Shown here: piece by piece, positions 1,822 through 22,649 of the stretch
How the letters are laid out: each line of letters opens with the position of its first letter
How positions within the stretch are numbered: the first letter of the stretch is position 1
DNA from: Bacteroidales bacterium
GTDB lineage: Bacteria; Bacteroidota; Bacteroidia; Bacteroidales; P3
Direction: 5' to 3'
DNA: 37,645 nucleotides
Assembly (NCBI GenBank): GCA_024400565.1
Contig: JAKSMQ010000016.1
Span: 1-37,645 of the forward strand
The notes under the pieces: model-generated
The model's database searches: none
What the model saw: the letters and a program-made list of their open reading frames with translations, nothing else
What the model was told of the DNA's origin: nothing
Made by a program: the position numbers and the translations under genes

Positions 1822-1964
1822 AATCAGTAATCAATTAATCAATTATTTTTTAAGGGTATCAATATCCACACATATAATATATTTATTTAATTATTAATTA
1901 GTTAAGAAATCTATAAAGAGATGTTGATTACACATATTTAAACTGAATAACTGATTACTGATTA
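1822..1964 (+). repeat. Palindromic repeat element, copy 1
   Basis: The left arm (1822-1845) is built of the word TAATCAR. The right arm (1941-1964) is its near-complement: over 23 aligned positions I count three mismatches. Between them is an AT-rich centre with the 13-base core TATTAATTAGTTA at 1892-1904, followed by AGAGATG at 1917-1923. Core and flanking words are shared with the copies at 2372-2509 (same strand) and 22502-22649 (opposite strand), while the arm sequence is different in each copy. No coding potential is evident. It could act as an RNA hairpin, a DNA cruciform or a non-autonomous mobile element; the sequence does not say which. Confidence 0.8.
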
Positions 1965-1984
1965 CCCAGAACAAATTTGTACGC

Positions 1985-2038
1985 CTCTATAGGGCATCCA
2001 AGATCCTATAGCGTATTGTTTAATAGAACCATAACAAA
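1985..2038. repeat. Imperfect direct repeat following palindromic element 1
   Basis: CTCTATAGGGCATCC ... GCGT ... AGAACCATAACAAA here matches CTCTACAAGGCATCC ... GCGT ... AGAGGCCATAACAAA at 2539-2593. Each copy lies about 20-30 bases after its palindromic element, so the duplicated unit is larger than the palindrome. A related GAGGCCATA...AAAGAT string is found on the minus strand downstream of the third element (about 22430-22455). Confidence 0.6.
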
Positions 2039-2056
2039 TTTCTTCTCATAGAGATG

Positions 2057-2074
2057 TTGTTTGTATACAAACAA
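2057..2074. repeat. Perfect 18-bp palindrome
   Basis: TTGTTTGTATACAAACAA is fully self-complementary. It lies downstream of element 1 and its tail repeat. At the equivalent place after element 2 there is a smaller hairpin, CTTCT-A-AGAAG, near 2625-2635, so a second small stem may belong to the composite repeat. Confidence 0.7.
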
Positions 2075-2371
2075 TCAGAACTCATTTTTCCCTATTCAAA
2101 ATCCTAAATCAGGTTCCGTTTTACCCTTTCTGGGAGTTGTTTTCGTCAACTTTGGTCTCGAAATTGAAAACAAAGTATAGAAACAGACAAAGCCCACAGC
2201 GGCTGGAATCATAGCAAATGGGCAACAAAACACACTTGTCAGACCCCTACGACAGGGGAATCTTGACGCAATCTGTACCTATTTCGAGCTTGGAATCTCG
2301 TATGGTTAGGAATTGAGAATGTCGTATTATATTGTTGATGTGCTATTTAGACAAATAATAGTTTTGATTAT

Positions 2372-2509
2372 CTTCCAATTCCAATTCTTCCAATTTGATT
2401 TCAAGGTATCACAATCTTCTTATTTCTAATATAACTATATATATATTAATTAGTTAAATATTATATATAGAGAGATGTGTATACCATTTTTTCAATTGGA
2501 AGATTGGGG
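2372..2509 (+). repeat. Palindromic repeat element, copy 2
   Basis: The left arm (2372-2396) is organised as TTCCAA-TTCCAA-TTC-TTCCAA. The right arm (2493-2509) reads, on the other strand, CCCCAATCTTCCAATTG, so it pairs with the left arm apart from small bulges. The core TATTAATTAGTTA is at 2444-2456, followed by TATATAGAGAGATG and TATACCATTTTTT. Upstream DNA (GTCGTATTATATTGTTGATGTGC, here abbreviated around 2313-2342) resembles the stretch upstream of copy 1, so the two copies look like a diverged tandem duplication about 550 bp apart. Confidence 0.8.
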
Positions 2510-2538
2510 TTCGGGATGTAATAATGGTTGACTATTTT

Positions 2539-2593
2539 CTCTACAAGGCATCCGAAAGTACGGAATGCGTCATCGAGAAGAGGCCATAACAAA
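2539..2593. repeat. Imperfect direct repeat following palindromic element 2
   Basis: This is the partner of 1985-2038, sharing CTCTA..GGCATCC at its start and CCATAACAAA at its end with a diverged middle. It marks the downstream part of the composite repeat. Confidence 0.6.
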
Positions 2594-2669
2594 GATCATA
2601 ACGGCAGAGACGCATGTTGTGTCTTCTAAGAAGCAAACACTCTCATCTAAGCAGCCTGAGAGACTATCT

Positions 2670-3233
2670 TTAGATGAACTTCGTTAACTCCTTGCACAAT
2701 CTTGCTACCGGCAGGCCCATTACATTATAATAGCACCCATCTATCCGCTCTATGCCTACCATGCCAATCCACTCTTGAATTCCATAAGCTCCGGCCTTGT
2801 CAAAAGGTTTGTAGGTATCAATATAATGGAAAATTTCTTCGTCGCTTAGATCTCGAAACCAGACATCGGTCTTCTCCGCAAAAGAATTCTGACAGGTCTG
2901 ACTACGCAAACAGACGCCCGTATAGACCTGATGCTCGCGTCCCGATAAGGAACGGATCATCTGGTAGGCTTCCTGGCGAGAATGGGGCTTACCTAACACA
3001 TTTTCATCACAGACCACTACCGTATCGGCTGTAACAAGCACATCACCTTGCTTCAGCAACTGGCTGTCGTACCCTTGGGACTTGAGTATTGCCAATCGTT
3101 CAGCCACCTGAGAGGCGGGAGTTGAGACGTCAATTTTTTCTTCGACGTCAACATCTACAATACTCAAGGGTAATCCTAGGGTAGAGAGGAGTTCGCGACG
3201 ACGGGGTGATTTGGATGCTAAGAGCAAATGCAT
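2670..3233 (-). CDS. maf: Maf-family nucleoside triphosphate pyrophosphatase (dTTP/UTP type)
   Basis: The 187-residue protein has the full Maf signature: SKSPRRRELL at residues 7-16, ADTVV at 69-73 with the catalytic-type Asp70, GKP at 81-83, SGREHQVYTGV at 97-107, DKAGAYGIQ at 145-153 and YYNVMGLP at 168-175. Maf proteins hydrolyse non-canonical or pyrimidine nucleoside triphosphates to monophosphates and have been tied to cell-division arrest. The DKAGAYGIQ form matches the YhdE-like dTTP/UTP subgroup. The gene follows the MORN-repeat gene on the same strand, but a strong terminator lies between them, so it is either read through at low level or has its own weak promoter. Length is normal for the family. 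Confidence 0.95.
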   Translation of the reverse strand: MHLLLASKSPRRRELLSTLGLPLSIVDVDVEEKIDVSTPASQVAERLAILKSQGYDSQLLKQGDVLVTADTVVVCDENVLGKPHSRQEAYQMIRSLSGREHQVYTGVCLRSQTCQNSFAEKTDVWFRDLSDEEIFHYIDTYKPFDKAGAYGIQEWIGMVGIERIDGCYYNVMGLPVARLCKELTKFI

Positions 3234-3262
3234 GGGTTGTTATTTTTTTGTGTTACTATCGT

Positions 3263-3288
3263 AAAAAAGGATAGGCTTTAACCTATCC
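3263..3288 (-). terminator. Rho-independent terminator after the MORN-repeat gene
   Basis: On the minus strand the stem GGATAGG / CCTATCC with loop TTAAAG is followed by six T. It sits 30-55 bases after the stop of the 3318-4493 gene and ends the 6613-3318 operon before maf. Confidence 0.9.
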
Positions 3289-3317
3289 TCATTTCTTTAA
3301 TAGGGATTGTTTATCGG

Positions 3318-4493
3318 CTACTTTTTAGCTTTCTTTGTATTGTCCTGCATACTTACCATCTTGCCTTCCTTAAATATGGCAATAACGCCTTCTTTGCCAA
3401 ACTCGTCGTAGAAGATCCACTTACCCTCTTTCTCTCCGTTTACGAAAGAACCGATTTCTTCTGGTTTGCCTGCTGTATTGTAACGTTCAAATTTGCCATT
3501 ATAGACTCCATTAGAATAGTTGCAACGAATTTCTATCTTGCCGTTGGGATAGTAGCGCACTTCTTCGCCATTCTTTACGTCATCCTGATAGGTAATAGTA
3601 TAGCGGGTACGGCCGTCATCGTAATAGCCTACCCATTGTCCATTCTTCTTTCCGTTACGGAAATTGCCTACATAGTCAACACGGCCATCTTCGTACCAAG
3701 CTGTCCATTTGCCATTCTCCTTGCCATTCTGATAGACGCCCTCGTGAAGTTTAGCGCCACTCTCATACCAGGTGGTCCACAATCCGCTACGTTCGCCGTT
3801 AACATAACTGCCTTCGCGCCAACGCTCGCCAGTTTCATAATAATAGGTCCAAGTGCCAGCTTCTACACCAGACTTGTAGTTGCCCTTGATACCCAACTTG
3901 CCGCTGGTACGCCAATAGAACTGCCAAACGCCTTCCTGTTCGCCATCCTTAAGCATACCTTTCATATCAAGCTTGCCACGGTCGGTATACCACACACCCT
4001 CGCCGTTGAGTTCGTTATTCTTGTATGTTCCCTGGAACTTGAGCAGACCGTTCTCGTGCCACTCGCGGGTCTTTCCTTCACGACTTCCGCCAACAAAAAC
4101 AATTTCGTCTTTCTGCTGACCATTGGCAAACCAGGACTTGTAAGTTCCGTTCTTTTTACCGTCGGTAACAGCAATCACGCTCTGAAGTTGGCCATTTTCG
4201 AACCAAGTACGGGTAGTACCTGTTCCGGAATGATATTCTTCGGCACAACGCTTGCCGTTTTCAAAGAAAACTTTCCAAATTCCAGTCTTCTCTCCCTCGT
4301 CGTAGGCTCCCTGCTGATAAACACGCCCATTCTGATGCCACCATGTCCAATCGCCGGTACGGACACTATCGTCGGTCATCATACCTTCAACGGCAGGGTG
4401 GTTCTGTTCTGCATCGTAGAACTTTTGATAACGAATTTGAGCCTGAAGCGACATTGTTGCCAGACAAGCAACAAGAAGGAATATCTTTTTCAT
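3318..4493 (-). CDS. Secreted MORN-type (YwqK-like) repeat protein
   Basis: The 391-residue protein has a signal peptide (MKKIFLLVACLATMSLQA, cleavage before QIR). The rest is some 13-14 tandem repeats of about 23 residues of the form 'G-x-W-x-x-[WY]-[YFH]-x-x-G-x-x-x-x-x-G-x-[YF]-x-x-G-x-x-x-G', for example GKWTAWYEDGRVDYVGNFRN. This is the MORN_2 / YwqK antitoxin-component repeat, which forms an extended beta-hairpin sheet. The tail is Lys-rich (NTKKAKK). In Bacteroidota such proteins are usually exported and of unknown role; the antitoxin label of the family is not supported here, because no toxin gene is adjacent. It is 28 bases downstream of the DUF4270 lipoprotein gene and probably co-transcribed with it. 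Confidence 0.88.
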   Translation of the reverse strand: MKKIFLLVACLATMSLQAQIRYQKFYDAEQNHPAVEGMMTDDSVRTGDWTWWHQNGRVYQQGAYDEGEKTGIWKVFFENGKRCAEEYHSGTGTTRTWFENGQLQSVIAVTDGKKNGTYKSWFANGQQKDEIVFVGGSREGKTREWHENGLLKFQGTYKNNELNGEGVWYTDRGKLDMKGMLKDGEQEGVWQFYWRTSGKLGIKGNYKSGVEAGTWTYYYETGERWREGSYVNGERSGLWTTWYESGAKLHEGVYQNGKENGKWTAWYEDGRVDYVGNFRNGKKNGQWVGYYDDGRTRYTITYQDDVKNGEEVRYYPNGKIEIRCNYSNGVYNGKFERYNTAGKPEEIGSFVNGEKEGKWIFYDEFGKEGVIAIFKEGKMVSMQDNTKKAKK

Positions 4494-4521
4494 GATAGAA
4501 TATTGGTTTTCTTTACAAAAA

Positions 4522-5781
4522 TTACAGTTCAGAATATACTACTACTATACGGGTCTGCCCGTTAGAAGAAGGTGCACAGCCGGCCACCTCGACACGATTA
4601 GCAGACGAACGACGGGAGTTGATCAACACCAGGGTTCCGGGGTCAAAGCCTTTGTAGAGCAGTTTCTGGAAATGCTGGGTGATACGCAACTTATAAGACT
4701 GCGTTTTTTCATTATAACGATAGTCAAGAGACCCTGAAGTATAGCCATCGGACATATCTGGAATATAAGTATTCACGGAATCGTTGACATACTTCAATAC
4801 GACCAGGTCTTTGGGAGGTGCGGTACTTTCGGGATTAACCACAGGCAACTGCAACTCGGCATAATGAATGATTGCATGAGGATGCTGATTATTGAACTGT
4901 TTCACAGCTGCTGTCAGATTAAGCTTAAGACAGCTTCCACCCATAGGTATCAGATGCAAACTGGTAGTACCAGAAATAGAATCCAAGGTATTGAGCAACG
5001 ATACCGAGCCACTATAGTTGGTAATATACTGGTTAAAATGAACGCCGCCCGCTCCTATTGAAAGCAGATTCTGCATGTGAGTGGTCTCCGAATCACCTTC
5101 ATATGTACGATAAACAATAACGCCGCTTACAGCCGCATTAAAATTGACTGTAAACATGGCCTGGTCGCCATCGCTGAGCATTCGGATTCTGATACCTTTG
5201 ATTGCAGATATCAACTCCTGGTTCGAAAAATTGTTTCCGTCGAGGATGTTTGCAAAACTGCTATTGAATTTGAGCCGGATGACAGTATCAGTAGGAGCTA
5301 CAGAAACCATACCGTCAAAGAATGTTGTAGAGCCTACGGCCGCGCTACTGAAAGCATAGTAGGTCGTATCCTTATAGAGATCCTCGGACAATTGTTTCAC
5401 CTCAAAATGAAGATTGAGAGGGCCTGCAGAAACCAGGCTTGCAGGATAGAGATCCTGAACCGAAAGAGACAATACGACAGAGTCGATGGTAGAGGTTCCC
5501 CAATTGATACTATTCTCAGAGGTATTGGCGACCTGAGAATAAATAATAGCCTCTTGTGTGCGCCAACTGTCGGATAAGCGTCCTAGCAGTCCCTGGGAAT
5601 AGTTGGTCGTTACCAAAGAATCGTCCTTCATGGTACAACCTGCCACAGACAGAGTATCAAATTTGCCATCATAGAGGGTAGCGGGATCCTGAAGACCGAG
5701 GCCTATGGATGATTCCTTCTCGTTGCACGCAACGAAAAAGAGTGTAAAAAGAGGTATGAGCAGAAATAATATGCGTTTCAT
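4522..5781 (-). CDS. DUF4270 family lipoprotein
   Basis: I place the start at the ATG at 5781, giving 419 residues, because this begins a clean lipoprotein signal (MKRILFLLIPLFTLFFVAC, lipid-bearing Cys19) and leaves a 7-base gap to the upstream gene. The ORF itself extends 21 codons further and would overlap that gene. The body, with IGLGLQDP near the N-terminus and IVYRTYEGD in the middle, resembles the Bacteroidota DUF4270 family, predicted surface or periplasmic lipoproteins of unknown function. In Bacteroides relatives DUF4270 genes lie next to the GT5-like gene, as here, which supports the assignment and suggests a shared but unknown role. Confidence 0.85.
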   Translation of the reverse strand: MKRILFLLIPLFTLFFVACNEKESSIGLGLQDPATLYDGKFDTLSVAGCTMKDDSLVTTNYSQGLLGRLSDSWRTQEAIIYSQVANTSENSINWGTSTIDSVVLSLSVQDLYPASLVSAGPLNLHFEVKQLSEDLYKDTTYYAFSSAAVGSTTFFDGMVSVAPTDTVIRLKFNSSFANILDGNNFSNQELISAIKGIRIRMLSDGDQAMFTVNFNAAVSGVIVYRTYEGDSETTHMQNLLSIGAGGVHFNQYITNYSGSVSLLNTLDSISGTTSLHLIPMGGSCLKLNLTAAVKQFNNQHPHAIIHYAELQLPVVNPESTAPPKDLVVLKYVNDSVNTYIPDMSDGYTSGSLDYRYNEKTQSYKLRITQHFQKLLYKGFDPGTLVLINSRRSSANRVEVAGCAPSSNGQTRIVVVYSEL

Positions 5782-5788
5782 TGAAAGA

Positions 5789-6613
5789 TTAATTATTGAT
5801 ATTGCTGCCAATAATGGAATCGTAGAGTTTGTTGATACGGGCATAGAAGGCTTTCTCGTCGGGGTTAAAATCTACTACGTGACGCTTGTTGGCCTTTGCG
5901 AACTCTACCAACTCGGGATCGACATTGGGTGATGCTATTACTATGCCGTTTGCATAGGTAATAACTGCCTTCATCAGGTTCTTATAGTCGAGATCGTGGA
6001 AAAGGCGTAAATCTTTGGCTGTCGCTCCGTCTGCTTTCATCTTACGTTCGAGTTCTTCGGTGAAACGGCCGTCAAAACTATCTTCGGTAAGAGAAAGTAC
6101 GGTCTTTGTACCCGAGAAGAATGCATTCTCTTTGTTGATACGCTTAAGATAGAAAGGTACCATCGAAGAGAACCATCCAGAGAAATGAATCAGGTGGGGC
6201 TGCCAGGCCAGTTTGCGAACAGCTTCGAGGGTACCGCGTCCAAAGAAGAGGAGACGCTCGTCGTTATCCTCATAGAGGTTGCCTTTTTCGTCATAAAAGC
6301 CCTGGTGATTGGTAAAATATTCCAGATTATCGATAAAATAAATCTGCATACGAGCAGAAGGAATGGAACCTACCTTGATGATGAGCTGGTGGTCGCAATT
6401 GTTAACAATAAGGTTCATTCCTGAAAGGCGGATTACCTCGTGGAGCTGGTGTTTGCGTTCACTAATGCTGCTGAAACGAGGCATGAATACGCGGATTTCG
6501 CGGCCTAATTCCTGGGTAAATTGGGGCAAGTAACGACCCATGTGTGCACCCTCGGATTCGGGAGTGTAAGGCATAATATCCTGACTTACATACAATATTC
6601 TTCCTTTTGCCAT
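5789..6613 (-). CDS. GT5 glycogen/starch-synthase-like protein, N-terminal domain only
   Basis: From the ATG at 6613 the protein has 274 residues beginning MAKGRILYVSQDIMPY. The longer ORF start at 6643 is excluded because the likely promoter -7 box (6641-6648) lies inside it. The sequence follows the N-terminal Rossmann domain of glycogen synthase (ILYVSQDIMPY, GRYLPQFTQELG, REIRVFMPRF, QIYFIDNLEYF, HLIHFSGWFSSMVPFYLK). However, the usual K-x-G-G-L nucleotide-sugar motif near the N-terminus is replaced by TPESEGAHMGRY and the entire C-terminal GT-B domain is missing. The next gene is an intact DUF4270 lipoprotein, so this is not a frameshift. Such single-domain proteins are conserved in Bacteroidales; glycogen synthesis by this protein alone is doubtful. 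Confidence 0.85.
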   Translation of the reverse strand: MAKGRILYVSQDIMPYTPESEGAHMGRYLPQFTQELGREIRVFMPRFSSISERKHQLHEVIRLSGMNLIVNNCDHQLIIKVGSIPSARMQIYFIDNLEYFTNHQGFYDEKGNLYEDNDERLLFFGRGTLEAVRKLAWQPHLIHFSGWFSSMVPFYLKRINKENAFFSGTKTVLSLTEDSFDGRFTEELERKMKADGATAKDLRLFHDLDYKNLMKAVITYANGIVIASPNVDPELVEFAKANKRHVVDFNPDEKAFYARINKLYDSIIGSNINN

Positions 6614-6640
6614 AGAGGTTGAGATATAGTTATACAAATG

Positions 6641-6648
6641 CAAAGATA
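6641..6648 (-). promoter_or_regulatory. Bacteroidota-type promoter -7 box for the GT5-DUF4270-MORN operon
   Basis: The minus strand reads TATCTTTG, a perfect TAnnTTTG box, 27 bases upstream of the ATG at 6613. The -33 TTTG element is not clear in the AT-rich upstream DNA. Confidence 0.65.
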
Positions 6649-6702
6649 CGAAAAAAATATTATATAAATATATTATTAATAAAAAAAGACACTATAATAG
6701 AA

Positions 6703-6731: not shown

Positions 6732-6833
6732 TATATTATTTGCGAAGCTAAACTATTGCGCGAAAAGAGAAAACCGACAATCAATTAATGATGACGGGAC
6801 ATTCTGAAACGTGTTCTCGCCAATCTGCCGAGA

Positions 6834-8861: not shown

Positions 8862-8874
8862 AAGGCCTGATGTT

Positions 8875-10256: not shown

Positions 10257-13200
10257 TTACTTCTTGTAAACCATCTTTCTCATCAGGCGATTGCCGTCCA
10301 TTTCGATACCATAGTAGTATACTCCGGTAGAAAGGTCGGACTGAGAGAAGTTGATGGAATTGTTGCCAGCCTCATATTGATCGTCGCTCTGGTATACGAG
10401 TCGACCCATAACATCCATCACAAAGAAACGTACATTTCCGGAAGTGGGGATATTGAAATCAATACGGGTGTTAGCATCGAAGGGGTTAGGATAGTTCTGC
10501 TCAAGGGTCATACCATTTGCAGCAGGTACCAATGGGATATCATCAAAGTAGTTCTGAATCTCAATGCGAGTCGTCTGGTCATTATCATGGTTAGCATCGC
10601 CACCAAAGTCAATATAACCATAACCAGTATAATTACGATTGGGATCCTTGGGTATTGTAGTATTGAACTCAATATGATATACACGACCGGCAGCAATGTA
10701 GTTGGGTGTCTGCTTGCGGAGGTTTACACCATTGATAACAGCTCCTACATAGAAACCAGCATTACGGTTGAATACGGTGTTACCCACATTCTCGATCTGG
10801 ATACGAACACGACATTCATCGTTGCGGTTTTCTTCAATAAGAACCATGTGAGGTGTGATATCTACAAACTGTGTGGCGATGACATCTGTCGTATCGTTTG
10901 TATGGTCATTATCGTTTGCGCATAGGACGAAAGCATTTACATACTGGTAACTATTGGGCCAAGTACGGGCTGCCAAAACGGTATCAAATGTATGATAGTA
11001 GGTATGGAGAGAAGCCAGAGGAGGATCGAGATGGATTGTATCATAGTACATGGTACTGGTATCACGATCATGCCAGAATCCCACAACCATATCACTAACA
11101 GCACGGGCTCCGATATTCTCTACGGTAAGCTGTACATGGCAGATGTTCTGAGTACCCAAGGAGGTATCAATTACAATCTCTTTTGCCTTAAGGTCTGTGA
11201 TGGCAGAGATACCCTGGAGGGTCTTGTTGATAGTATCGTTGTAGATGTAGTCGTCGGTTGCCGAGTTAACAATAGCCTTCAAGTGCATAGTACCCATTGA
11301 AGCACGACACTTCTGTCTGAAAGTGTAGTTGAAGAATTCGAACGAACCGAGAGGTCTGTTCAGAATAGCGTTGAAGTCTACATGCTCTGTAACTTCAAAG
11401 TTATTGTAGACATAAGTTACATCACATTCGTCAACAGGAGCTTGACCATAGTTACGCATACGAGTGGTAACTACAATAGAGTCACCGGCTACTATACGAG
11501 AGAGAGGATAGAGGAACTCTACCATACCCATATCGTTATCGAGAGGAGCAAGACCGAAGTTCTTGCAAGTAGAGTCGTTCTCCCAATAGATATCCATGTT
11601 TACAGTAGTATAAGCACAGATTTCAAAGGTATCAGGGAAGTCAGACATTACTACGAAAGGATCGGGGAAGGTGTAGAGTGCTGTTCCACCAGGTTCGAGA
11701 ACGCCATTGTAGGTTCCAGTCTTTGCTAGGTTACTACCATAGGGTCGGTAAGCGAGGTTTACAGAACGCATAGTATCATAACCAAAGTTCTTGATAACGA
11801 CCTTGGGATATATGGTCTGACCGAACTTGGGATGAGTGGGAGAAGTGATAGCGATTACACCAACGTCGACTGCACGTTGAGCACGACCTACTGTGAAATC
11901 ATCAATAGTTACACCATCGCATACAGGTGCACCAGGATGTGCAATGAATACGAAGCGGAACTGGAGACGCTGCTGGAATTCGCCGCTGATAGCTCGGGTA
12001 GCAAACTGACGACGCTCATAAGCATAACCTGCAGAGGTACCTGCAAATCCGGCGCCGGCGTTATACCAAAGGGTATCGTTAGCAGTACCGACTTTTCTCC
12101 ATTTACCCTGCCAGTCAAAGTACTCGAGATAAACGAAACTGCTATCGCCGAGGTCGCGTGCAATATAGAAGGAGATAGTGTCGGGACGAATCTGAGAGAT
12201 GTCGATGATAGGAGTATACAAGTAACTGAGATTACCTCTCTGTGTATAGGCTGTAGAACCATTGATCTGCGTAGCATATACAGTAGAGTCGCTTACCCAT
12301 GAGTTGAGGTTTCTCTTAGCAGGAGTACCCTTCTGCCATACATTTTCGGTAAACGAGGTAAATCCCTGAGGTGCATACCAAGTAATCTGATCACTTTCAA
12401 AATCATCGGTCAGCACGAGGGTCTTCACCTGGAAACGATGGAACTGGCAGGTGAGAGAGTCGTTGGTAGCATTGGTATCACCATAAACATTCACGGCAAT
12501 CTTATAAGTGGTAGTACCCTCTTCGAGGTGACGAGCGGGCAATGTAACTGCCTCACTATGGCCAGGAAGAATATTACCGGTCCAGTTGTAAGTCTCGTGA
12601 GAGAGTGAACCATGAATGACAGAGTATGCTATTTCGGCTGAAGTAATAGGAGTAGCGCCCTTATTGGAAATCATAATGGAAACACTGGTGCTATCACTCT
12701 CAACAAAAGGAGTAGTGGGTGATACTAAACGAGAGAGTGCTGCATCGGTCTCAACAGGATTGTCTTCAATATATAGGAGATAATCCTGAACATTACCGAA
12801 GTCGATATTAAGGGCATTATCGTCACCATACTCGAAAATTTCATGTCCACCTTGAGCAAGGACTGCACGCATACGCATATGACCGAGGCAGATGCTGTCA
12901 GGAACAGTAAATATGAACTTACGGGGATGGCGCGAAGAGATTGTGTCAGCAAAGATAATCTCTGTATAGTCACCATAGAGTGCCATCTCGGGATCAGTAT
13001 TGTCGAAATGGCCATCACGGTTGTAGTCAATCATCACGGTGAGGAATCCGCCGGTATTGAAATCGGCATGATCATCACTATTAGCTACTTCTAGAATCAT
13101 GGTGTCGGTAGTACCCTTGATGAGTCTCAGCTTTTCGACCATAGGATTGTTGATCTGAGCGAAATTGCTGTAATCACGACCAACTTCAGGTAATACGCTA

Positions 13201-16200
13201 TTGAGACTACTGAAACTGATTCGGGTAATATCAAGGCCTCCGGGAGAACCGACTACGGGAGTAGTGTACTGGCTCTCGGGTAAGGTCTTAAATACATGGA
13301 AATCGCGTAAGGTATCGTTTACACGAACCATTTCGTTACCAAGATCTGTCCAGGTACGAAGTGTATAGTTTACATTCTCGGTAGGCAGAATAATCAACGA
13401 GTCGAACTTGAAGAGATAGGTATCGTCGGGAGCAATAGTTGCTCGACAGATTTCTGTTACCTCCTGGAGTACGGGCATATTGTTACCCTGACGACGGAGC
13501 TGATAGGTTACAGGAATATTGGTGATAGGCTGATTACCATAGTTGATAATTCTTACCTTAACAGTATCGTTGTCCATATAAACCTTTGAGTAAGGCTCCT
13601 CAACGGCTACAATAGCTGCATCGACAGCAACACGAGGATTCAAGTATACATGAACAGGATTGTAGTAACTGGTACATCCAGTATTGCTTACACATGCGAG
13701 ATAGTAGGTTGAATCATGGAAATACTGAGGAGTTTCCCACCAGCAGGAACGTGCATACTGAGTAGGAGCATGGAATGGTTCAGCATCGGTGGAGTCACGA
13801 TACCACATGATAGGACGACTGGCAGTTGTTCCGGGAAGGGTCTCGTTCTGTGATGCGTGAATTGTATCCCAGGTCGCATAAGGAATGTGGAGGTCAACAC
13901 CATTAGGAGGAGTAGGCAGATACTTAGAGGTAACCGTCTTCCAGGAGTTAACGCTATTAGCAGTAGTATAAGCTGCGCTTGTATCCTTACTGTTAGGACC
14001 TACGGGTTTCTGGTCGAATTGATAGGATACCCATCCGCGAACTCGAACCGAAATATCTTTAGAGTTACCGGTAGGATAGAGATTAACACCATTAGCAAAC
14101 TGAAGTTCTCTTGATTCGTTTACACCAAGAGGAGCGTTCAAATAAACCTCCTCGGTATGGGTGAGAGGAATCTGCGCGACAGTATAGGTTGCCGATGTGG
14201 GCAGTTTTACTTCATAACCGATAGTAAGAGGATAGTCTACGGGAACTGGTTTGCGACCCTTGTTGGTAACGGTTAGCGAAATAGGAGCGTTGTTCAGACG
14301 ACAGCCTTCGCCGTAACCGACCTCTGTGGTAACATTCACATCATTAACACTAGCAACAGTAAGATCGTAAGCCATTTCAATAAAGAATACTGTATCGGTT
14401 ACATTATTTACCATCAAACTATCGTTATGGAGATCAGTAGAGAAGTACGCTCTTATATACTGAGTATCGATGAGACCCATTGGGAGAACGATAAACGAGC
14501 TATCGTAAATAATTTCACCGGGCTGCATCTCAGCAATAGTACGAGTAAGAGTTCTAAGGGTTGGATGATCAATAATCTCTGCATTCCACCAGAGGTTGGT
14601 CTCGGTAGAAGTACCATTATTCATCAGTTTAACCTTTACAAAGAGAGTGTCAGCCTCAACGGTATTGGCAGCCAGAGTAGGAGTAATAAACTGCATGATA
14701 CCTACGTCGTGGATAGAACGGCCAAATTCATCAGCACCAATACATGGAGCAGGAATAGCGGGACGAGATTCACCATCAATATCAGTAGTTACCTCGGGCA
14801 GATACTGAGCCTTTTCATTATAGGTACCAAATGCGAGGTGAAGATCCTGACCGCTTACGAAAGTGGGCTGACTGAACATTGAGTTAGCCTCACGACCCTG
14901 GGTGAAGATACGGAGGGTATCAATTGAGGTGAGTTCGGCAGTACCGATACGAGCAAGTTTACGGGTTGCAGCTGCAGTATCGGAGAAGATTACATTGTAA
15001 TTGGATGAGGATACGTTGGAGAGACTGTTCAGCCAATATGCATAGCCTTTACTGAAGTTAGCAAAGATATTATTCAACACATAAATACCAGCAGAGTTGT
15101 GATCAACAGAGAATGATCGGGTGGTCGCTGCATTAGCTCCAGCATTAAGGCTGACAGTGTTGTAATAAACATTCATAAACTGAGAACTATCGATAGAGAT
15201 ACCATAGGGTACCTGGCCGGTAGTACCAGTACTGATAGAAGAGCACATATTGTTGTAGATCTTACCACGGTCAATATCGTTACCGATACAGCTGAATACC
15301 GAGATAGGACGCTTACCGCCATTTTTGGTATCGGCAAGAATAACATAGTTGCGCTCGATATCAATTCCGCCTTCAACATTGGCCACCAAGATACCCGTAA
15401 GAGCACGACCGGCTACACTTACACCAGAATGGATATAGTTCTGACGAATGTAGATGCCATTTACCTTACGCATCTGGATACCGGTAGACCAGAAGCCGTC
15501 GATGGTATCGCTATTGATGAACATATTGGCAGACAAACCAGTATCAGCACACATACTGCGTATTGCATAATAACCGCTGTCTATGCGGGAATTCTCGATA
15601 TAGAGCTCGTGAACACCGGGATACACGAGAACGCATGAAGAGTTTGCATTGTTGGTAGTACCCTTTACTCGAATTACAGCATTATTAAAATGAATATTGG
15701 AGCAATTGGTAAGCCATACTGCATTGGATGAAGCTGCGGGACCATTAGAGTAGATGGTCATATGGTCGAAGATTACGTTTGAACCTCCGTCGAGTTTCAA
15801 TACATAGTTTTCGGCAGCAGTAGGAGCATGACGAAGAGTTACGCTCTCACGGTTCAGGTTTGCAGAACGGAAGGTAACAGTATTGAGTGTTGAGGTACCT
15901 TCTATCGCTGCAATGTTGAGCTGTTCGTTGTAGATACCACTCTGAACGTCGAACACAACAGGACCTGAGATACCTGCACCATAAAGGGTGTCGAGGGCAA
16001 CCTGGAATGAAGGATAGTCGTTACCTGCAGCAGGACCGATTGTGTAGGTGCCGCCACAGAAGCTGACGTTGATCATTCGGCGAATTGTATCGTTAACAGG
16101 AACGGTATCGTTAGGAGCGTTAACGATAGCAAGCAAGGTGTGTCGACCAGGAGTGAGTGAAGGAGTTGCAATGGTAAGTTCAGAACTCTGGCCAGAAGCA

Positions 16201-19200
16201 ATAGTGGTCGTATTATTATAAACGCCGTGAGTAGCATCAACCCAATAATCAATGGTAAGACTATTCAAAGCAGAAGAACCGCCATTGAAGAGAGACACAT
16301 TGAAGTTAGATGCTCCACATGAAGAGAACTGGGTGGTATCCATACTAACAGGCCACTGGAGAGAAGCATCACTAGCGGGTGTTCCTTCTACATGTACATA
16401 GACAGGAGATGCAGGGCCTTCGCAACCATAATCCTGGAAGCGGAAGAGCATATCGGGACGCTTATCGCTAAGAGTACCATTGCCAGGAACATTAGTAAGG
16501 GTGGCTGCATTAGCATCATCCTTATAATATACAGAACCAGCAAAGGCCTGAGTGTAGCGGGTCTGCGCACCTTGAGATATAGCAGAAGAGAGAGAACGGG
16601 TAATACCGACTACGATATTGGATGTTCCATCCCACACGAAAGGAGTAGTAAACTCATGGGTTATCCAACCTCTGTCTGCATTGGTGAGGGTGAGGTTGGT
16701 CTGATTATAAACCTCTGTCAGAGTCTGCCACCTGGTTGAAGCAGCACCACCGTTAAATGCCTCGATTGAGGTTGAACCTATAGATACCTTATATGTATTG
16801 AAGGTCATCGAACCGGTAGCATTACGGATGGTGTCGAGGTAGAAGGAGAGAGCCTTGATAGGACCAGCGGAATGACCTGCAGCAATCATTTCCTCAGCTT
16901 TGATAAGGTACTGCTCCTGACCATTAACCTTGTTGGGGTTGTAGGGAGAGGGATACGCAGTAGCACCATTTACCATGGAAAGTTCTCCGAGATGGATATT
17001 GTTGTAAGCAGGACCGAATGCTGTTACGTAGAAAGTGTCGTCGGTATAAAGGAAGTCGGAGGTGAAGACATTGGTAGTATCGAGAGGACGCATATTGCGG
17101 TCATACCATGCCAGACTATCAGCTGAAGGCATATCGGTCGTGAGGACGGCGCGCTCAGCATAGTTAACAGTATCGTAGGGGTAGATAACAGGAGCAGTAG
17201 GAGTGTAACGGGAAACTACGCTGCAGCTGGAGGTATCGTTGTGATAGGTATTGTCACCATTGACGTGGTCAACCCAAACCTTGAAATCAAAACGGGTTTC
17301 ACCACTCGAAACAAACATGTTGGCTGGCGTGGAGAAAGTGTGGGTTACCATTGCACGGGGAGCAAGGCTTGCGAGAGTATCGGTACATGCGACAACGCCA
17401 TTGATGCTGTAGCGGGCAACAAACTGACCACTTGCCTGAGCACCATAGTTGCTGATGTTGACTACTACGTTTTCGTTAGCCAAACCACATCCTTCAGGCA
17501 TGCTGATGCTGTCGAGAGAGAGGTCGATGGAAGGAAGGTTGTTGAGGTGGATGTTGACAGTAGCCACTTCGCCGAGACAGCCATTATCGTAGAAACGGAT
17601 AAGCTTGGTGTCGGGAGTACCCAGAGTCATAATGTGAGTTGAGTCTGCAACCTGCCAGTACTGAGCGCTGTTTGAAGGCGAGGAGGAACTGGTAGGCCAT
17701 CCTTTGCGGATAACACCGGCAGTAGTATTGTTGAGAGCAATACCCTGACCTGCCCAAACAGAATTGTGGATATTATTCTGAGTCCATACGGTGCCGCTTG
17801 CAGAAGACATGTTGTTGAAGGATACTGCGTCAACAACACCACGCTTGTCGCGATAAAGAATTGCAAAATTGTGGTTGTAGGCAGGAGTAATGGTGGCACC
17901 AGCGCCAAGAGTCTTGGTAGAGTCGGTGGTGGTGATACCTGAACGGAACTGAACAACGATACTCTTACCAGGCTGGATAGTCACTCTGGGGAAGATGTAC
18001 ATCTTGTTGTTCAGGGTAGCAAAAGCGTTATTGTTGTTGGTGTTGACAGAGCAAAGCATCAGGGTGTCGCCTTCAAGCTCGGCAGGATAGTCACCCACAT
18101 TGGTCATCTCTACAGCAAAAGCGGTAGCAGCATTCATCCAAAGCTGCTGGGGGAAGGTAACACCAACGCCATTATTCTTCAGCTGAACCTCGGTAATCTT
18201 CATAAGAGGAAGGTTGCGATGCTGGCGAATGTAGAAAGTGGTGTCGTGATAGAGAACATCGGTGGTATAGGAATTGCCGCGATAGAAGGGAACAGTATTG
18301 GGGTCGTTGTCGGTATACCAATAGATAGTGCTACGCTCTGCACGGCCGGAAGTATAGATATTGCTGTACCATTGCTGAACACCTGAGGTAACATTAACAG
18401 TTGCGCTACTACCATAGTTTGCATTTACGTTAACATTGGAAGGTGCGGGAGCATGGTAATGAGCGGTAACAGTATAGGAGGATGTATCGTTAATGGGGTT
18501 GGGGTCAATAGCTGAAGTAAGCCAGAAGTAGAAACGATAGGTGGTATCCAGCATACCGTTGGTGGGGAAGTTGAGCGTTGCATTAACGGTACAAGTACGG
18601 GTGCTGCTTCCCGGGATGGTATCAAGAATCTGAACGATACCAGACTGACCGGGGGTCATCTGACCGGGAGTGGTGGCACGGGAATAAGTAAGGTTAAGGC
18701 TGCTGCCGTTTCCGGGGATGAAAGTATTGATACCGCTGTTCTTGATCTGCAGACGGAGAGGAGCGCCGGAAGCAGGAACGTCGCAATATTCATCGTAAGG
18801 TTCAACCATTCCTACAATCTCGAAATCGTAGGGCAATGCCAGGAATTCAAATGCTCCGACACAAGGCGAAACGTTATCACGCTGGGTACCGTAGATATCG
18901 GTGGGAACATCTGCAAAATAGAATGCATGGTTCTTTACCTGCTGGCTGTAGGAGCGGAGGTCGGTAGGAGTAGAGCTGAGGAATGCAGGATTGGTATTCT
19001 GGGAGTTTGCATCGTTGATATGGGTGCGCCATGCTGTAAGATTGTTGCAGTTTACACCATCATACTTGTTGAGGAGGAAGCTACCGGAATAATAAATATT
19101 GAATCCTATATAATTTATATTATCCTCATAAGGCACATAACTGAAGGCGTAGTTGCTCTGGTCTGTGCTGGCAACAATATTGTTGTAGAAATAGCAATGA

Positions 19201-22157
19201 TCAATCTCTCCGCCGCCGAAGGTTGCAGCTGCAACGCCCGAACGCTGGGGAGCGTTAAGCTTGATAGAGTTGTGGAGAACTTTGGTATAGGATGCATCGA
19301 TAATGAACATAGGAGTAGTGAGCATGTTGCTCTGGCCATCATCGTTGCTGATGAGCATATTGTTTGCTATGATAGCATTGTTGCTGTTTGTACCCAGGAA
19401 GCCGGTAACACCAAGACAGGAAGCACCGGAAGTCACATAAACGGTATTGCGGGTTACGCGCATAGCGTCGTGACAATCCTGGAAGAGGAGAGCATAGCTG
19501 GTATTGGTAAGGATATTGTCAACAGAGTTGCTGTCGACGATGGAGGATACATGGTTGCGAACTATGATAGCGTTGCTACCCTGATTCTGGAAACTGTTGT
19601 TGCAGATAACGGCACCATGGGCAAGGTTATCGGCTGCAGGACCTACCATGCTTACGCCGACATTACCACGCTTGAAGGTACAGCCTCTAACCTCAAGGCT
19701 ATCTGCACCACCTGAGTAGAGCAAAGCGGTAGCACGGGTGCTGGCGGCAAGGCTGGCCACGTTGCTGGCAGTTTCTTCAAAGGTACACTCAGAGAACTGG
19801 CATCCGATGCTGTTGATACCCATACGGACGGGATAAGTAACATTGTTGAGATAAGCTGACTGGAACTTAATCTTCGAGAAACGTATGTGATGGGTATTGC
19901 GAAGGTCAATTAGTATAGAGCTACTGGTGGTACCCTGGTTGAAGACTACGGAATTGGCTTGTCCGTTGAGGGGCTCAAACTGAACAAAATTGGTAGCTGA
20001 TGCGCCAGGGATGTTGGGAATTACGATAGGTTCGTAGGTATTGGGGGCGAGTTTCACATGCAAGGGTCCGCCCACACCGCATTGGCTTACGGCATAGAGG
20101 AAACGCTCGAGTGTCTGATAGTCGGCACCAGTACCGCCAACCTGGATGTTGCCGCTGAAGGGGCCTGCGCAGGCAACTAGTTTGGTCCACAAGGTATCGT
20201 TGTAAGGCTCGTGGTCGCGATAGTGAACGCCATTGCTGGTAACGCTGTCGTCTACCCATGCAAGCATTTCGTGATAACCTACAGAGAAGTTTTCGGTTGT
20301 GCTGACGGTAACATTGGTAGTAGCTCCGCCGGCAAGGCTTCCAGTCCAGTTGTAGGAATGTGTCACGCCGCCGTCAACCTGGTAGTAGAGGGTTACGGCA
20401 TTAATGGTGCTGACACCATAGTTCTTGAGCGTGAGGGTTACGTTGTTGTTCTGGTTGGCTGTAGCCGGAGTAGAGTCGTTGGGGAAAGCGTAGCCCGAGA
20501 TTCCGCAGTCATAAATCAAAGGAAGGTTCTCGTAAGCTCTAAATGTAAAGTCGGGACGCTTGGTTGAGGTAATACCCTTTTCAAAATGCGACTTGGTCCA
20601 GGGGTTCATACTGGTACGCGCATCGGTAGTCTGATAGAGGGTCTGCTTTTGACTGGCTGTAGCAAAACCCTTGACCTGCATCGACCCGGGGTCGCGCATG
20701 GTTCCGGTATTGTTATAGCTGGCCGAGGTCACCATCATCATCAGGTCCTTACCGGCATAGAAGAAGGTATCCTGGAAATAGATATTGACCGTTGTATTGG
20801 CATTCTGGGTCAATACAAGGACGCTATCGTATACCACCTTCATGGCATTAAGGTTGAAGTAGGGGGTGATGGAGGTCTGGTCGATGGTATAATCGGTGGG
20901 GACGTTACACATCTTGATCTCGAGGGTATCTCGACGCGAATTGCTTACCGAACTTGCGGCCGTAAAGGTCATGCTGGTAATGGCACCCGGTTTGTAGCCG
21001 GCAGCCGCAAGCGAGGCGCTGTCGTAGATAAACTGCGAGCGGTGTGATGCCTCGGTGGGGAACGGGAAATCGCCGATATTATTCAAAGTCGCCCCCAATG
21101 CTGTCGCCACAGATTGCTGGTTGGTGGTACCACGCACATTGTGGTACGTATTCCAGGATGCAGCATCGGCGGGGAAGTTGACCTGATTCTTATTCAGCGT
21201 AGCATCCTGTACAACGATTCGGTAGCTGATGGTGGTATCGTAACCTACGAAGGGGATGGTACCCTTGACGCGTGCATTCGATACGCCACCCTGGTTGTTG
21301 GTCTGCTGAGATACTACCTGAAGGGTCTGCTTCTGTATGGGAGCACCTACACCAAGACGGTAAAGCATGTATACGGAGTCGAGATTCAGACCCTGCTGAA
21401 CCGAAGTGGAGACGTTTGCCTCAATACGGGTGGAGCGGCTGGTGGGGTAGCTGCCAAGATCGGGATAGTTGAGCATATTGATCTTGGGGTTTACCATAGC
21501 CTGGGTACTGGCCTTGAAGACCAGGTTATCCAGATACCATGCCTGGGTGCTCGTACCGCTGGTTCTAGCCTTAAGGGTAATCCTTACGATGAGCTTGCGG
21601 CTCGACTGGGCTGTACCTGTAAAGAAGGTGTTGAGATTAAACTTCTCCTTCTTCCAGTCGGCATTGGTCACGTTGTTCTGAGCCGACAGCCATGCTGCAT
21701 ACGACTTGCGGGAGTAGGAGTCGGTTCCGGCAAAGTCGGACGAATAATACTCACCATTCTTGTCGTAATGGGTCGTACCATTCAGCTTGGTGAAGGTAGT
21801 CTGGTCGGCACGCTTAGCCTCGATGATGGCACAGATACTTGCCGTCTGGCAGGTAGTAGGGTCGACGTTGTTGATGTGATTGAACTCCATCGAGAAATAC
21901 TGGAAACTACCATTGGCAGTAAAATCGATGGTGTCAAGTACGATTACAGCGTCGGTCGTGGTGTGCGACATCTTCAGCGAGCGGCCTCCTGAGAAAGCCA
22001 GCGAATTGGTTGCAGCCACAGTACCGCTTTGCACGGTATAGGACGAGTTTTCGCCCGTGGCTTCAAACCCCTGCTGGTAGGTCACGACAATCTGACTTTG
22101 AGCCCTGAGACCCAAAATCACGAAAATCAGCCCTAAGAGTAGTAATCTTTTTTTCAT
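10257..22157 (-). CDS. Giant (3966 aa) type IX-secreted modular surface protein
   Basis: A signal peptide (about residues 1-22) and a C-terminal T9SS type A sorting domain (about 3882-3966, LEQNYPNPFDANTRIDF ... GNRLMRKMVYKK) mark it as a cell-surface or released T9SS cargo. Approximate architecture: jelly-roll-like domain 25-215; beta-sandwich 340-545; first parallel beta-helix 665-1105; lamin-tail-like domain 1320-1520 (MKITEVQLKNNG); second copy of the beta-sandwich type 1715-1925; second beta-helix 2035-2480; GEVED domain 2985-3127 (DYNRDGHFDNTDPEM, GNVQDYLLYI); MAM/jelly-roll-like domain 3250-3422. About twelve CARDB-like Ig modules join these, beginning near 549, 1112, 1537, 1929, 2490, 2596, 2849, 3137, 3429, 3537, 3650 and 3764. 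No catalytic domain is evident, so adhesion or matrix function is inferred. It has its own promoter. The uninterrupted 11.9-kb frame argues for function. Confidence 0.93.
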   Translation of the reverse strand: MKKRLLLLGLIFVILGLRAQSQIVVTYQQGFEATGENSSYTVQSGTVAATNSLAFSGGRSLKMSHTTTDAVIVLDTIDFTANGSFQYFSMEFNHINNVDPTTCQTASICAIIEAKRADQTTFTKLNGTTHYDKNGEYYSSDFAGTDSYSRKSYAAWLSAQNNVTNADWKKEKFNLNTFFTGTAQSSRKLIVRITLKARTSGTSTQAWYLDNLVFKASTQAMVNPKINMLNYPDLGSYPTSRSTRIEANVSTSVQQGLNLDSVYMLYRLGVGAPIQKQTLQVVSQQTNNQGGVSNARVKGTIPFVGYDTTISYRIVVQDATLNKNQVNFPADAASWNTYHNVRGTTNQQSVATALGATLNNIGDFPFPTEASHRSQFIYDSASLAAAGYKPGAITSMTFTAASSVSNSRRDTLEIKMCNVPTDYTIDQTSITPYFNLNAMKVVYDSVLVLTQNANTTVNIYFQDTFFYAGKDLMMMVTSASYNNTGTMRDPGSMQVKGFATASQKQTLYQTTDARTSMNPWTKSHFEKGITSTKRPDFTFRAYENLPLIYDCGISGYAFPNDSTPATANQNNNVTLTLKNYGVSTINAVTLYYQVDGGVTHSYNWTGSLAGGATTNVTVSTTENFSVGYHEMLAWVDDSVTSNGVHYRDHEPYNDTLWTKLVACAGPFSGNIQVGGTGADYQTLERFLYAVSQCGVGGPLHVKLAPNTYEPIVIPNIPGASATNFVQFEPLNGQANSVVFNQGTTSSSILIDLRNTHHIRFSKIKFQSAYLNNVTYPVRMGINSIGCQFSECTFEETASNVASLAASTRATALLYSGGADSLEVRGCTFKRGNVGVSMVGPAADNLAHGAVICNNSFQNQGSNAIIVRNHVSSIVDSNSVDNILTNTSYALLFQDCHDAMRVTRNTVYVTSGASCLGVTGFLGTNSNNAIIANNMLISNDDGQSNMLTTPMFIIDASYTKVLHNSIKLNAPQRSGVAAATFGGGEIDHCYFYNNIVASTDQSNYAFSYVPYEDNINYIGFNIYYSGSFLLNKYDGVNCNNLTAWRTHINDANSQNTNPAFLSSTPTDLRSYSQQVKNHAFYFADVPTDIYGTQRDNVSPCVGAFEFLALPYDFEIVGMVEPYDEYCDVPASGAPLRLQIKNSGINTFIPGNGSSLNLTYSRATTPGQMTPGQSGIVQILDTIPGSSTRTCTVNATLNFPTNGMLDTTYRFYFWLTSAIDPNPINDTSSYTVTAHYHAPAPSNVNVNANYGSSATVNVTSGVQQWYSNIYTSGRAERSTIYWYTDNDPNTVPFYRGNSYTTDVLYHDTTFYIRQHRNLPLMKITEVQLKNNGVGVTFPQQLWMNAATAFAVEMTNVGDYPAELEGDTLMLCSVNTNNNNAFATLNNKMYIFPRVTIQPGKSIVVQFRSGITTTDSTKTLGAGATITPAYNHNFAILYRDKRGVVDAVSFNNMSSASGTVWTQNNIHNSVWAGQGIALNNTTAGVIRKGWPTSSSSPSNSAQYWQVADSTHIMTLGTPDTKLIRFYDNGCLGEVATVNIHLNNLPSIDLSLDSISMPEGCGLANENVVVNISNYGAQASGQFVARYSINGVVACTDTLASLAPRAMVTHTFSTPANMFVSSGETRFDFKVWVDHVNGDNTYHNDTSSCSVVSRYTPTAPVIYPYDTVNYAERAVLTTDMPSADSLAWYDRNMRPLDTTNVFTSDFLYTDDTFYVTAFGPAYNNIHLGELSMVNGATAYPSPYNPNKVNGQEQYLIKAEEMIAAGHSAGPIKALSFYLDTIRNATGSMTFNTYKVSIGSTSIEAFNGGAASTRWQTLTEVYNQTNLTLTNADRGWITHEFTTPFVWDGTSNIVVGITRSLSSAISQGAQTRYTQAFAGSVYYKDDANAATLTNVPGNGTLSDKRPDMLFRFQDYGCEGPASPVYVHVEGTPASDASLQWPVSMDTTQFSSCGASNFNVSLFNGGSSALNSLTIDYWVDATHGVYNNTTTIASGQSSELTIATPSLTPGRHTLLAIVNAPNDTVPVNDTIRRMINVSFCGGTYTIGPAAGNDYPSFQVALDTLYGAGISGPVVFDVQSGIYNEQLNIAAIEGTSTLNTVTFRSANLNRESVTLRHAPTAAENYVLKLDGGSNVIFDHMTIYSNGPAASSNAVWLTNCSNIHFNNAVIRVKGTTNNANSSCVLVYPGVHELYIENSRIDSGYYAIRSMCADTGLSANMFINSDTIDGFWSTGIQMRKVNGIYIRQNYIHSGVSVAGRALTGILVANVEGGIDIERNYVILADTKNGGKRPISVFSCIGNDIDRGKIYNNMCSSISTGTTGQVPYGISIDSSQFMNVYYNTVSLNAGANAATTRSFSVDHNSAGIYVLNNIFANFSKGYAYWLNSLSNVSSSNYNVIFSDTAAATRKLARIGTAELTSIDTLRIFTQGREANSMFSQPTFVSGQDLHLAFGTYNEKAQYLPEVTTDIDGESRPAIPAPCIGADEFGRSIHDVGIMQFITPTLAANTVEADTLFVKVKLMNNGTSTETNLWWNAEIIDHPTLRTLTRTIAEMQPGEIIYDSSFIVLPMGLIDTQYIRAYFSTDLHNDSLMVNNVTDTVFFIEMAYDLTVASVNDVNVTTEVGYGEGCRLNNAPISLTVTNKGRKPVPVDYPLTIGYEVKLPTSATYTVAQIPLTHTEEVYLNAPLGVNESRELQFANGVNLYPTGNSKDISVRVRGWVSYQFDQKPVGPNSKDTSAAYTTANSVNSWKTVTSKYLPTPPNGVDLHIPYATWDTIHASQNETLPGTTASRPIMWYRDSTDAEPFHAPTQYARSCWWETPQYFHDSTYYLACVSNTGCTSYYNPVHVYLNPRVAVDAAIVAVEEPYSKVYMDNDTVKVRIINYGNQPITNIPVTYQLRRQGNNMPVLQEVTEICRATIAPDDTYLFKFDSLIILPTENVNYTLRTWTDLGNEMVRVNDTLRDFHVFKTLPESQYTTPVVGSPGGLDITRISFSSLNSVLPEVGRDYSNFAQINNPMVEKLRLIKGTTDTMILEVANSDDHADFNTGGFLTVMIDYNRDGHFDNTDPEMALYGDYTEIIFADTISSRHPRKFIFTVPDSICLGHMRMRAVLAQGGHEIFEYGDDNALNIDFGNVQDYLLYIEDNPVETDAALSRLVSPTTPFVESDSTSVSIMISNKGATPITSAEIAYSVIHGSLSHETYNWTGNILPGHSEAVTLPARHLEEGTTTYKIAVNVYGDTNATNDSLTCQFHRFQVKTLVLTDDFESDQITWYAPQGFTSFTENVWQKGTPAKRNLNSWVSDSTVYATQINGSTAYTQRGNLSYLYTPIIDISQIRPDTISFYIARDLGDSSFVYLEYFDWQGKWRKVGTANDTLWYNAGAGFAGTSAGYAYERRQFATRAISGEFQQRLQFRFVFIAHPGAPVCDGVTIDDFTVGRAQRAVDVGVIAITSPTHPKFGQTIYPKVVIKNFGYDTMRSVNLAYRPYGSNLAKTGTYNGVLEPGGTALYTFPDPFVVMSDFPDTFEICAYTTVNMDIYWENDSTCKNFGLAPLDNDMGMVEFLYPLSRIVAGDSIVVTTRMRNYGQAPVDECDVTYVYNNFEVTEHVDFNAILNRPLGSFEFFNYTFRQKCRASMGTMHLKAIVNSATDDYIYNDTINKTLQGISAITDLKAKEIVIDTSLGTQNICHVQLTVENIGARAVSDMVVGFWHDRDTSTMYYDTIHLDPPLASLHTYYHTFDTVLAARTWPNSYQYVNAFVLCANDNDHTNDTTDVIATQFVDITPHMVLIEENRNDECRVRIQIENVGNTVFNRNAGFYVGAVINGVNLRKQTPNYIAAGRVYHIEFNTTIPKDPNRNYTGYGYIDFGGDANHDNDQTTRIEIQNYFDDIPLVPAANGMTLEQNYPNPFDANTRIDFNIPTSGNVRFFVMDVMGRLVYQSDDQYEAGNNSINFSQSDLSTGVYYYGIEMDGNRLMRKMVYKK

Positions 22158-22204
22158 GTTATATTAATTATTATTTATTTATTTTCATTCATTTATACGA
22201 ATCG

Positions 22205-22236
22205 TACGTACACAACACCCCCATTTTTGGGGTATT
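22205..22236 (-). other. Leader hairpin of the giant T9SS gene
   Basis: On the minus strand CCCC-AAAAAT-GGGG (22219-22232 region) can form a short GC stem in the roughly 85-base 5' leader. It is the only GC-rich stretch in an otherwise AT-rich leader. It may affect mRNA stability; regulation is not shown. Confidence 0.4.
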
Positions 22237-22247
22237 CTACGGATACG

Positions 22248-22280
22248 CAAATATACAACTTTTTTATATTCTACAACAAA
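22248..22280 (-). promoter_or_regulatory. Promoter of the giant T9SS gene
   Basis: On the minus strand the -33 box TTTG (22277-22280) and the -7 box TATATTTG (22248-22255, a full match to TAnnTTTG) are separated by 21 bases. This fits the known Bacteroidota primary-sigma consensus. The predicted leader is about 80-90 bases. Confidence 0.8.
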
Positions 22281-22501
22281 AAAATTCATTTTTTATTACA
22301 AATAAATAATAACGCTTTTCCCCGGCTCATAAATCGCGCTTCCATCCGAGAATGACGTCCTTTAATTGAGACCTCCATTCATAACGATTTTTGCAATTCC
22401 GATTCGTGATCTCAAAGACGTAAAACAACAAGCCATCTTTACTCAATATGGCCTCATAGGGAAAGTATAATCTGTCTTCTATCCCCTACCCTACTACGCT
22501 T

Positions 22502-22649
22502 TGTTAAAGTTAAAGTTGTTAAAGATAAAAAATGGCATACCAACCTTCTCTTATACTATCTATAACTAATTAATATATAAATAAATATAAAGGATTTTAA
22601 GAAATAACATGTATCTCGAAAATAAACTTTAACAACTTTAACTTTAACA
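22502..22649 (-). repeat. Palindromic repeat element, copy 3
   Basis: The arms 22502-22524 and 22627-22649 are a perfect 23-bp inverted repeat. On the plus strand the left arm is (T)GTTAAA-GTTAAA-GTT-GTTAAA-G, the same 6-6-3-6 word layout as in copy 2 but with a different word. The core TATTAATTAGTTA is on the minus strand (plus 22563-22575), so this copy is inverted relative to copies 1 and 2. In the core's orientation it continues AGAGAAGG, GGTATGCCATTTTTT, close to copy 2 (AGAGATG, GTATACCATTTTTT). DNA on its upstream side (GGTATGCGGATTTACT, GGGAAATGAG) also resembles that of copy 1. Confidence 0.88.

Follow-up and report, generated by a model that had tools for sequence, protein, structure and literature searches.

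Palindromic iteron arrays of Bacteroidales that vary with a predicted winged helix of an MCM-like protein are candidate replication origins

Palindromic elements in the window and in the genus

The stretch of DNA analysed here (the window) comprises the 37,645 nucleotides of contig JAKSMQ010000016.1 of a Bacteroidales bacterium (GCA_024400565.1), a metagenome-assembled genome of 1.89 Mb in 57 contigs and 71.6% complete. It contains three copies of a palindromic element; related elements are found in front of a gene, here called Y, whose product is predicted to be MCM-like, and we propose that they are binding-site arrays read by this protein and probably DNA replication origins. A preliminary description had reported the three elements and a 13-base core common to them. 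A covariance model made from 19 copies recovered all three at the places claimed (Table 1), and the 13-mer TATTAATTAGTTA is present without mismatch in each. The whole genome contains 17 exact occurrences of this 13-mer and none of the reversed control pattern. Inspection by eye placed 16 of the 17 cores inside an element, the exception being locus L013; the right arm at L008 is decayed. The covariance model detects 29 copies in the source genome and at least one copy in 31 of the 99 genomes of the genus, two of which have at least 31; since up to 31 candidates were scored per genome, counts close to 30 are minimum values. From 218 + 43 matches of the model, 171 elements (165 distinct) were analysed, leaving out same-place opposite-strand matches, L133 (coinciding with L093), L159 (cut off) and matches scoring below 43 bits (L151:1044, L171:745, L156:1843, L186:2239 and L144:1525). 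The prediction that further copies would have differing yet paired arms is strongly borne out by these copies and by the arm-swap energies given below.

Table 1. Coordinates of the elements and adjoining features in the window.
Feature	Position	Strand	Remarks
Element copy 1	1818..1967	+	core 1892-1904; two inverted iteron arms and AT-rich core; covariance model R1, 96.3 bits
Left end repeat, copy 1	1791..1805	+	GCCTCTTAGAAGGAA; end-motif match
Right end repeat, copy 1	1984..1995	+	CCTCTATAGGGC; end-motif match
Element copy 2	2369..2520	+	core 2444-2456; word GAAG; outer right arm decayed; covariance model R1, 109.7 bits
Left end repeat, copy 2	2342..2354	+	read from sequence
Right end repeat, copy 2	2535..2549	+	TTTTCTCTACAAGGC; end-motif match
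Decayed 5' fragment of gene Y, adjoining copy 2	2263..2336	-	blastn and readable remnant of the Y stretch GTDCIKLVLS
Element copy 3	22500..22651	-	core 22563-22575; word TAAC, CTT replacing CTG; perfect 23-bp arms; covariance model R1, 94.3 bits
Left end repeat, copy 3	22665..22680	-	read from sequence
Right end repeat, copy 3	22451..22464	-	reverse complement GCCTCATAGGGAAA; end-motif match

Read on the non-core strand from the inside outwards, the Y-side arm has the form AACTGnnnn AACTGnnn CTGnnnn, that is, an iteron of ~9 nt occurring three times, and the opposite arm is an inverted copy of it. The word nnnn is mostly constant inside one copy and changes between copies, and the same first word is found on both arms in 182 of the 201 elements that were parsed on both sides. 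The earlier statement that the arms of different copies are unrelated in sequence has to be corrected: the arms share one grammar, in which mainly the word differs. GC content is 38% in the arms and 17% in the core of ~90 bp, against 46% in the window. Tandem arrays of two to three units occur, the units having different words. The word of copy 2 recurs at the element that precedes the intact Y gene in the source genome (L101), and blastn matches this intact locus to positions 2263-2508 of the window at 72%.

Imperfect inverted repeats of ~13 bp are located near both ends of the element. On the core strand the left end motif is GC(C/T)TTTTAGGGAA, mostly 14-15 nt off the arm, and the right end motif is TTCTCTACGAGGC, mostly 11-68 nt off the arm. 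Scores of at least 11/13 were obtained for 121/164 right and 118/164 left flanks, compared with 13/161 and 18/164 for the respective controls (Y-locus copies included). End repeats so far above the control stretches, together with the short tandem arrays and the many chromosomal sites, resemble a miniature inverted-repeat transposable element (MITE) whose ends are cut by a transposase and whose iterons are incidental. However, no transposase was identified (no family search was made for one), neither an empty site nor a target duplication could be shown around the copies tried, and a MITE would leave unexplained both the fixed place before Y and the correspondence between word and protein described below. 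As a rival to the origin reading it is very improbable, but both readings may hold together.

Protein Y and the variable word

Protein Y, of ~435 aa, is predicted to combine a helicase-like fold with a C-terminal winged helix-turn-helix and to have no primase part; judged by its structural model it would be an MCM-like, ATPase-like protein. None of the family libraries searched names Y, and PF13148 (DUF3987) at its curated cut-off does not match it; a distant link to this family runs through longer proteins, such as the G036:C25 protein (25%), itself matched by PF13148. Searching solved structures by sequence with Y returned one weak unrelated match (E 0.05). A separate primase of the DnaG type, Z, adjoins Y.

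The relation between word and protein was first seen in 18 Y loci and was fixed before a larger set of 80 Y-element pairs, which includes part of those loci, was examined. The scan of named genomes used the best 80 of 112 relatives; five of those 80 loci start inside Y (L244, L252, L253, L267 and L275), and two gave no element match despite upstream DNA (L250, with 218 nt, and L266). Words were parsed automatically and a few are possibly shifted (e.g. L190, reparsed for the 80-pair set); parsing was good in 77 of the 80 pairs, and the low-scoring L207, L225 and L227 were kept only in the 80-pair column ranking. Among the 80 pairs, which display 20 different words, residue 408 of Y tracks base 1 (Lys with G; Val, Asn or Leu with A; mostly Gln with T), residue 404 tracks base 2 (His with G) and residue 407 tracks base 4 (Tyr with G, never otherwise). 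These three residues rank top of 293 variable columns for bases 1, 2 and 4, respectively. Base 3 is nearly invariant (A in 77/80), so that the finding of 407 again as its top column tells little. Residues 404, 407, 408 and 411 are spaced as a single face of predicted helix 399-411.

When the comparison was restricted to Y proteins with an identity of 85% or more outside the region of the helix, 51 pairs with the same word had zero differences at 407 and 408, whereas 43 pairs with different words had ~1.3 differences there on average. This indicates that relatedness does not explain the match between word and helix. In leave-one-out predictions the four helix residues gave the full word in 55/77 cases versus 33/77 when the nearest protein as a whole was used; restricted to partners below 75% identity, these numbers were 35 and 12. 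As judged from sequence, the variable words are tracked by one predicted winged helix of Y and make up a readable, putative protein-DNA recognition code. The joint change of the two arms would follow from their being the putative binding site of Y in inverted copies, and a fixed core flanked by variable yet matching arms would arise without RNA, through coevolution of the inverted sites with one helix. The ~80 initiator-site pairs may serve as a natural experiment for reading a winged-helix recognition code in an MCM-like bacterial protein.

The preliminary description had also claimed that the arms pair within each copy, perfectly over 23 bp in copy 3 and near-perfectly in the others. Copy 3 is indeed paired at 23/23 bp and copy 1 at 87% over 23 bp; pairing in copy 2 (72% over 29 bp) is weaker than claimed owing to decay of its outer right arm. 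Folding of the core strand as single-stranded DNA yielded z-scores of -1.6, -4.1 and -6.7 for copies 1, 2 and 3, that of copy 1 being unconvincing by itself. RNAalifold recovered only 6 pairs from a MAFFT alignment because MAFFT shifts the right arms, and arm swaps were therefore used as the pairing test. Over the 165 distinct copies the mean pairing energy was -40.8 kcal/mol for own arms versus -19.3 for arms swapped between copies, and the own right arm was a top-5% partner in 146/165 copies and the single best one in 44/165.

Arms that pair far better within than between copies would also be produced by a selected RNA or single-stranded DNA hairpin, for example one in a structured RNA or in a strand that a transposase recognises. 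Core-strand mismatches in the 165 copies (G.T 99 versus A.C 34) point in the same direction, as does the agreement across arms of 15 of 27 deviant middle units, the other 12 not being shared. However, the strand bias is due mostly to one position, which accounts for 52 of the G.T mismatches in the 149 reference-motif copies (43 versus 27 when it is excluded, p = 0.07), Rfam at gathering scores has no match in the window, and the DNA-binding helix accounts for the word. A structured strand is weakly supported; the RNA reading was rejected on account of the strand asymmetry and the Rfam result, and a selected hairpin as such is quite improbable. The suggestion that a selected stem or arm-to-arm gene conversion maintains the arms does not hold as the main cause, since the helix of the neighbouring protein tracks the variable bases. 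It survives in so far as some pairing, in the shared deviant units, is kept beyond the word, to which a hairpin role as in plasmid pRN1 or arm-to-arm copying may add.

Candidate origin function

As in iteron-type origins, several short repeats, three in each arm, are located beside AT-rich DNA, and the element adjoins what would be its cognate initiator, with a matching predicted DNA-binding helix. With iterons in two sets flanking AT-rich DNA, next to an MCM-like protein and a primase, the arrangement has an origin-like anatomy. Overall we favour, with a probability of roughly 0.7, the reading that the palindromes are binding-site arrays read by Y and probably DNA replication origins. The winged helix of Y would bind the inverted iterons in both arms, the AT-rich core would melt, and replication would fire there.

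The element is located 29-49 nt 5' of the Y start codon in the eight loci checked (one being a Y fragment). This place would also suit an operator, at which Y would bind the inverted iterons ahead of the Y gene and repress or time transcription of that gene, with no replication starting there. Covariation of word and helix suits any cognate Y site, and an autoregulatory operator would give the same result. On the other hand, two sets of three iterons, ~90 bp of such low GC content, an MCM-like protein and a primase are the anatomy of an origin, and scattered copies retain the full array without an adjoining intact Y gene. We consider the operator unlikely.

Besides this shared covariation, several observations weigh against the origin reading. 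The model of Y has a mean predicted local distance difference test score (pLDDT) of 75 (five models, 51 to 75), its winged helix was hardly probed by fold comparison, and the sequence of its putative Walker A motif, SGGNKGQ, is atypical. Searches of phage, plasmid and viral-contig collections did not find Y, so that any replicon served by it would have been seen on chromosomal contigs only, and no integrase family is present among 25 of the 75 Pfam families for 84 Y-locus neighbours. Five of the 80 pairs depart from the simple rules (L198, L199, L201, L241 and L248), and the close pair L198 (TAAC) and L089r (TGAT) has identical helices and different words. The matching deviant middle units mentioned above are not required by binding alone. 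Elements are also present in genomes without the short Y, such as G065, which is 97% complete and has 11 copies. Finally, in genomes with an intact Y the word of the resident Y was found in only 10 of 90 parsed scattered copies (14/151 scattered copies were unparsable for the word), so that the resident Y would not bind most of them; the idea that scattered copies serve the resident Y was rejected for this reason.

The paper on the crenarchaeal plasmid pRN1 describes an origin with a ~100-nt stem-loop, conserved in fold and not in sequence, with conserved flanks, and a replication protein in which a superfamily 3 (SF3) helicase is fused to an archaeo-eukaryotic primase and followed by a C-terminal winged helix; it adds that sequence differences might allow independent replication of related plasmids, and, according to it, the origin has no iteron structure and is located after the gene (PMC4234260). 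The present element is similar in having a stem-loop kept in fold only, as indicated by the arm-swap energies, and in adjoining a helicase-type protein with a predicted C-terminal winged helix. It differs in that the iterons form the stem and the residues tracking the sequence can be named, in that pRN1 is archaeal, and in that primase, SF3 helicase and winged helix are not joined in one chain, Z being separate and of the DnaG type. For the phage-inducible chromosomal island-like element (PLE) of Vibrio cholerae, it is reported that the origin and the DNA-binding domain of RepA covary and that experiments have shown cognate specificity; the initiator is of the RepA_N type without predicted helicase or primase, the origin has three ~30-bp repeats, and there are two groups (PMC8263062, PMC7145576). 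The present system would likewise be a modular replicon whose origin and initiator covary through the DNA-binding domain, here as judged from sequence; it is distinguished by an MCM-like protein, 9-nt iterons inverted round an AT-rich core and the number of its words.

The same papers mention a winged helix for the alpha protein of phage P4 (PMC4234260) and a helicase and a primase for Staphylococcus aureus pathogenicity islands (SaPI; PMC7145576). Like P4 alpha/ori and SaPI Rep/ori, our system would combine a primase and an initiator-helicase carrying a DNA-binding domain with short iterons and AT-rich DNA in chromosomal mobile islands, whereas the protein families differ. SaPI Rep/ori has a short-iteron layout; to our knowledge, neither P4 nor SaPI has orphan origins that are scattered and bear end repeats. 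Helicase-like DUF3987 (PF13148) proteins are predicted helicases of mobile genetic elements (PMC5862659). Unlike these, Y is short, split from the primase and preceded by a hairpin. Repetitive extragenic palindromic (REP) sequences are 20-40 bp long and are mobilised by a Y1 transposase (RAYT), from which our element, of ~150 bp and with an ATPase-like partner, is set apart by description. The open-licence PMC literature yielded nothing describing the element by title or start of abstract.

Scattered copies and gene surroundings

Many copies in the source genome bear pieces of the start of Y and the end of X, a further protein encoded with Y and Z. In other genomes some copies lack pieces of Y, as do the arrays of G065, G074:C1 and G074:C3, where there is no Y match. 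An intact Y was assigned by eye to 17 genomes, and Y fragments were found in 7 of the 14 element-bearing genomes that have no intact Y. Locus L011 (G000:C29) consists of ~550-bp tandem units, each made up of the element, the Y 5' end and the X 3' end and having its own hairpin. Loci L139 and L165, in two genomes, contain an identical two-element array followed by an identical 344-aa gene, with differing upstream genes, as if array and gene had moved together. It is possible, though doubtful, that such orphan origins are a class of chromosomal mobile DNA, in units of ~220 bp (hairpin plus end repeats) and at least 30 copies per genome, each with the word of another initiator, forming a library of origins or decoys open to firing by, titration against or recombination with incoming X-Y-Z modules. 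The question raised is why rumen/gut Bacteroidales chromosomes hold dozens of origin-like hairpins that mostly mismatch the word of the resident initiator.

A search for an empty site found Maf orthologues in 44/119 genomes. The first 30 Maf loci covered only 1.5 kb beyond Maf, and the gap between Maf and isocitrate dehydrogenase in the window is 1.67 kb, thus out of reach. In 20 relatives (five cut by contig ends) isocitrate dehydrogenase was not found in the 2-5 kb covered beyond Maf, so that the gene order is not shared and the empty site is unreadable. The flank of L164 gave 74-80% matches over ~280/1151 bases in eight other genomes. Synteny was not conserved around the two copies tried.

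Scans of neighbouring genes covered 84 of 102 open reading frames (ORFs) at Y loci and 89 of 121 at scattered copies; fragments, X and suspected spurious frames were dropped by eye. Restriction-modification and other defence families were commonest among the Y-locus neighbours, while those of scattered copies were mixed chromosomal genes, a contrast that is descriptive only. Y loci L088-L107 are surrounded by restriction-modification genes of type I and other types, RhuM, Abi_2 and HipA, and the X-Y-Z module may, given these neighbours, ride in defence islands. Primase Z at L088:6800-7696 (+) matched the PADLOC model RTasDnaG-like (E 1.7e-57), filed under defence-associated reverse transcriptase (DRT) systems; no reverse transcriptase was recognised by eye among the listed ORFs near six Y loci. 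BLAST joins 73 of the 75 X proteins into one chain-linked family, and we therefore rejected the idea that X is an unrelated captured gene. A further idea, that the X C-terminus is in every case encoded by the right end repeat, was dropped, the strict motif being present there in 34/80 loci.

Directly beyond copy 3 the window contains an array of 11-bp direct repeats (22811-23008; TTATATGGACG and variants), and the neighbour of this copy is one open frame of 3966 aa (10257-22157, minus strand). At the extreme end of the contig (37563-37645) TGCTATGGCCAGCGACCGAAGTGGAGC is present three times, in exact 27-nt copies with a period of 28 nt.
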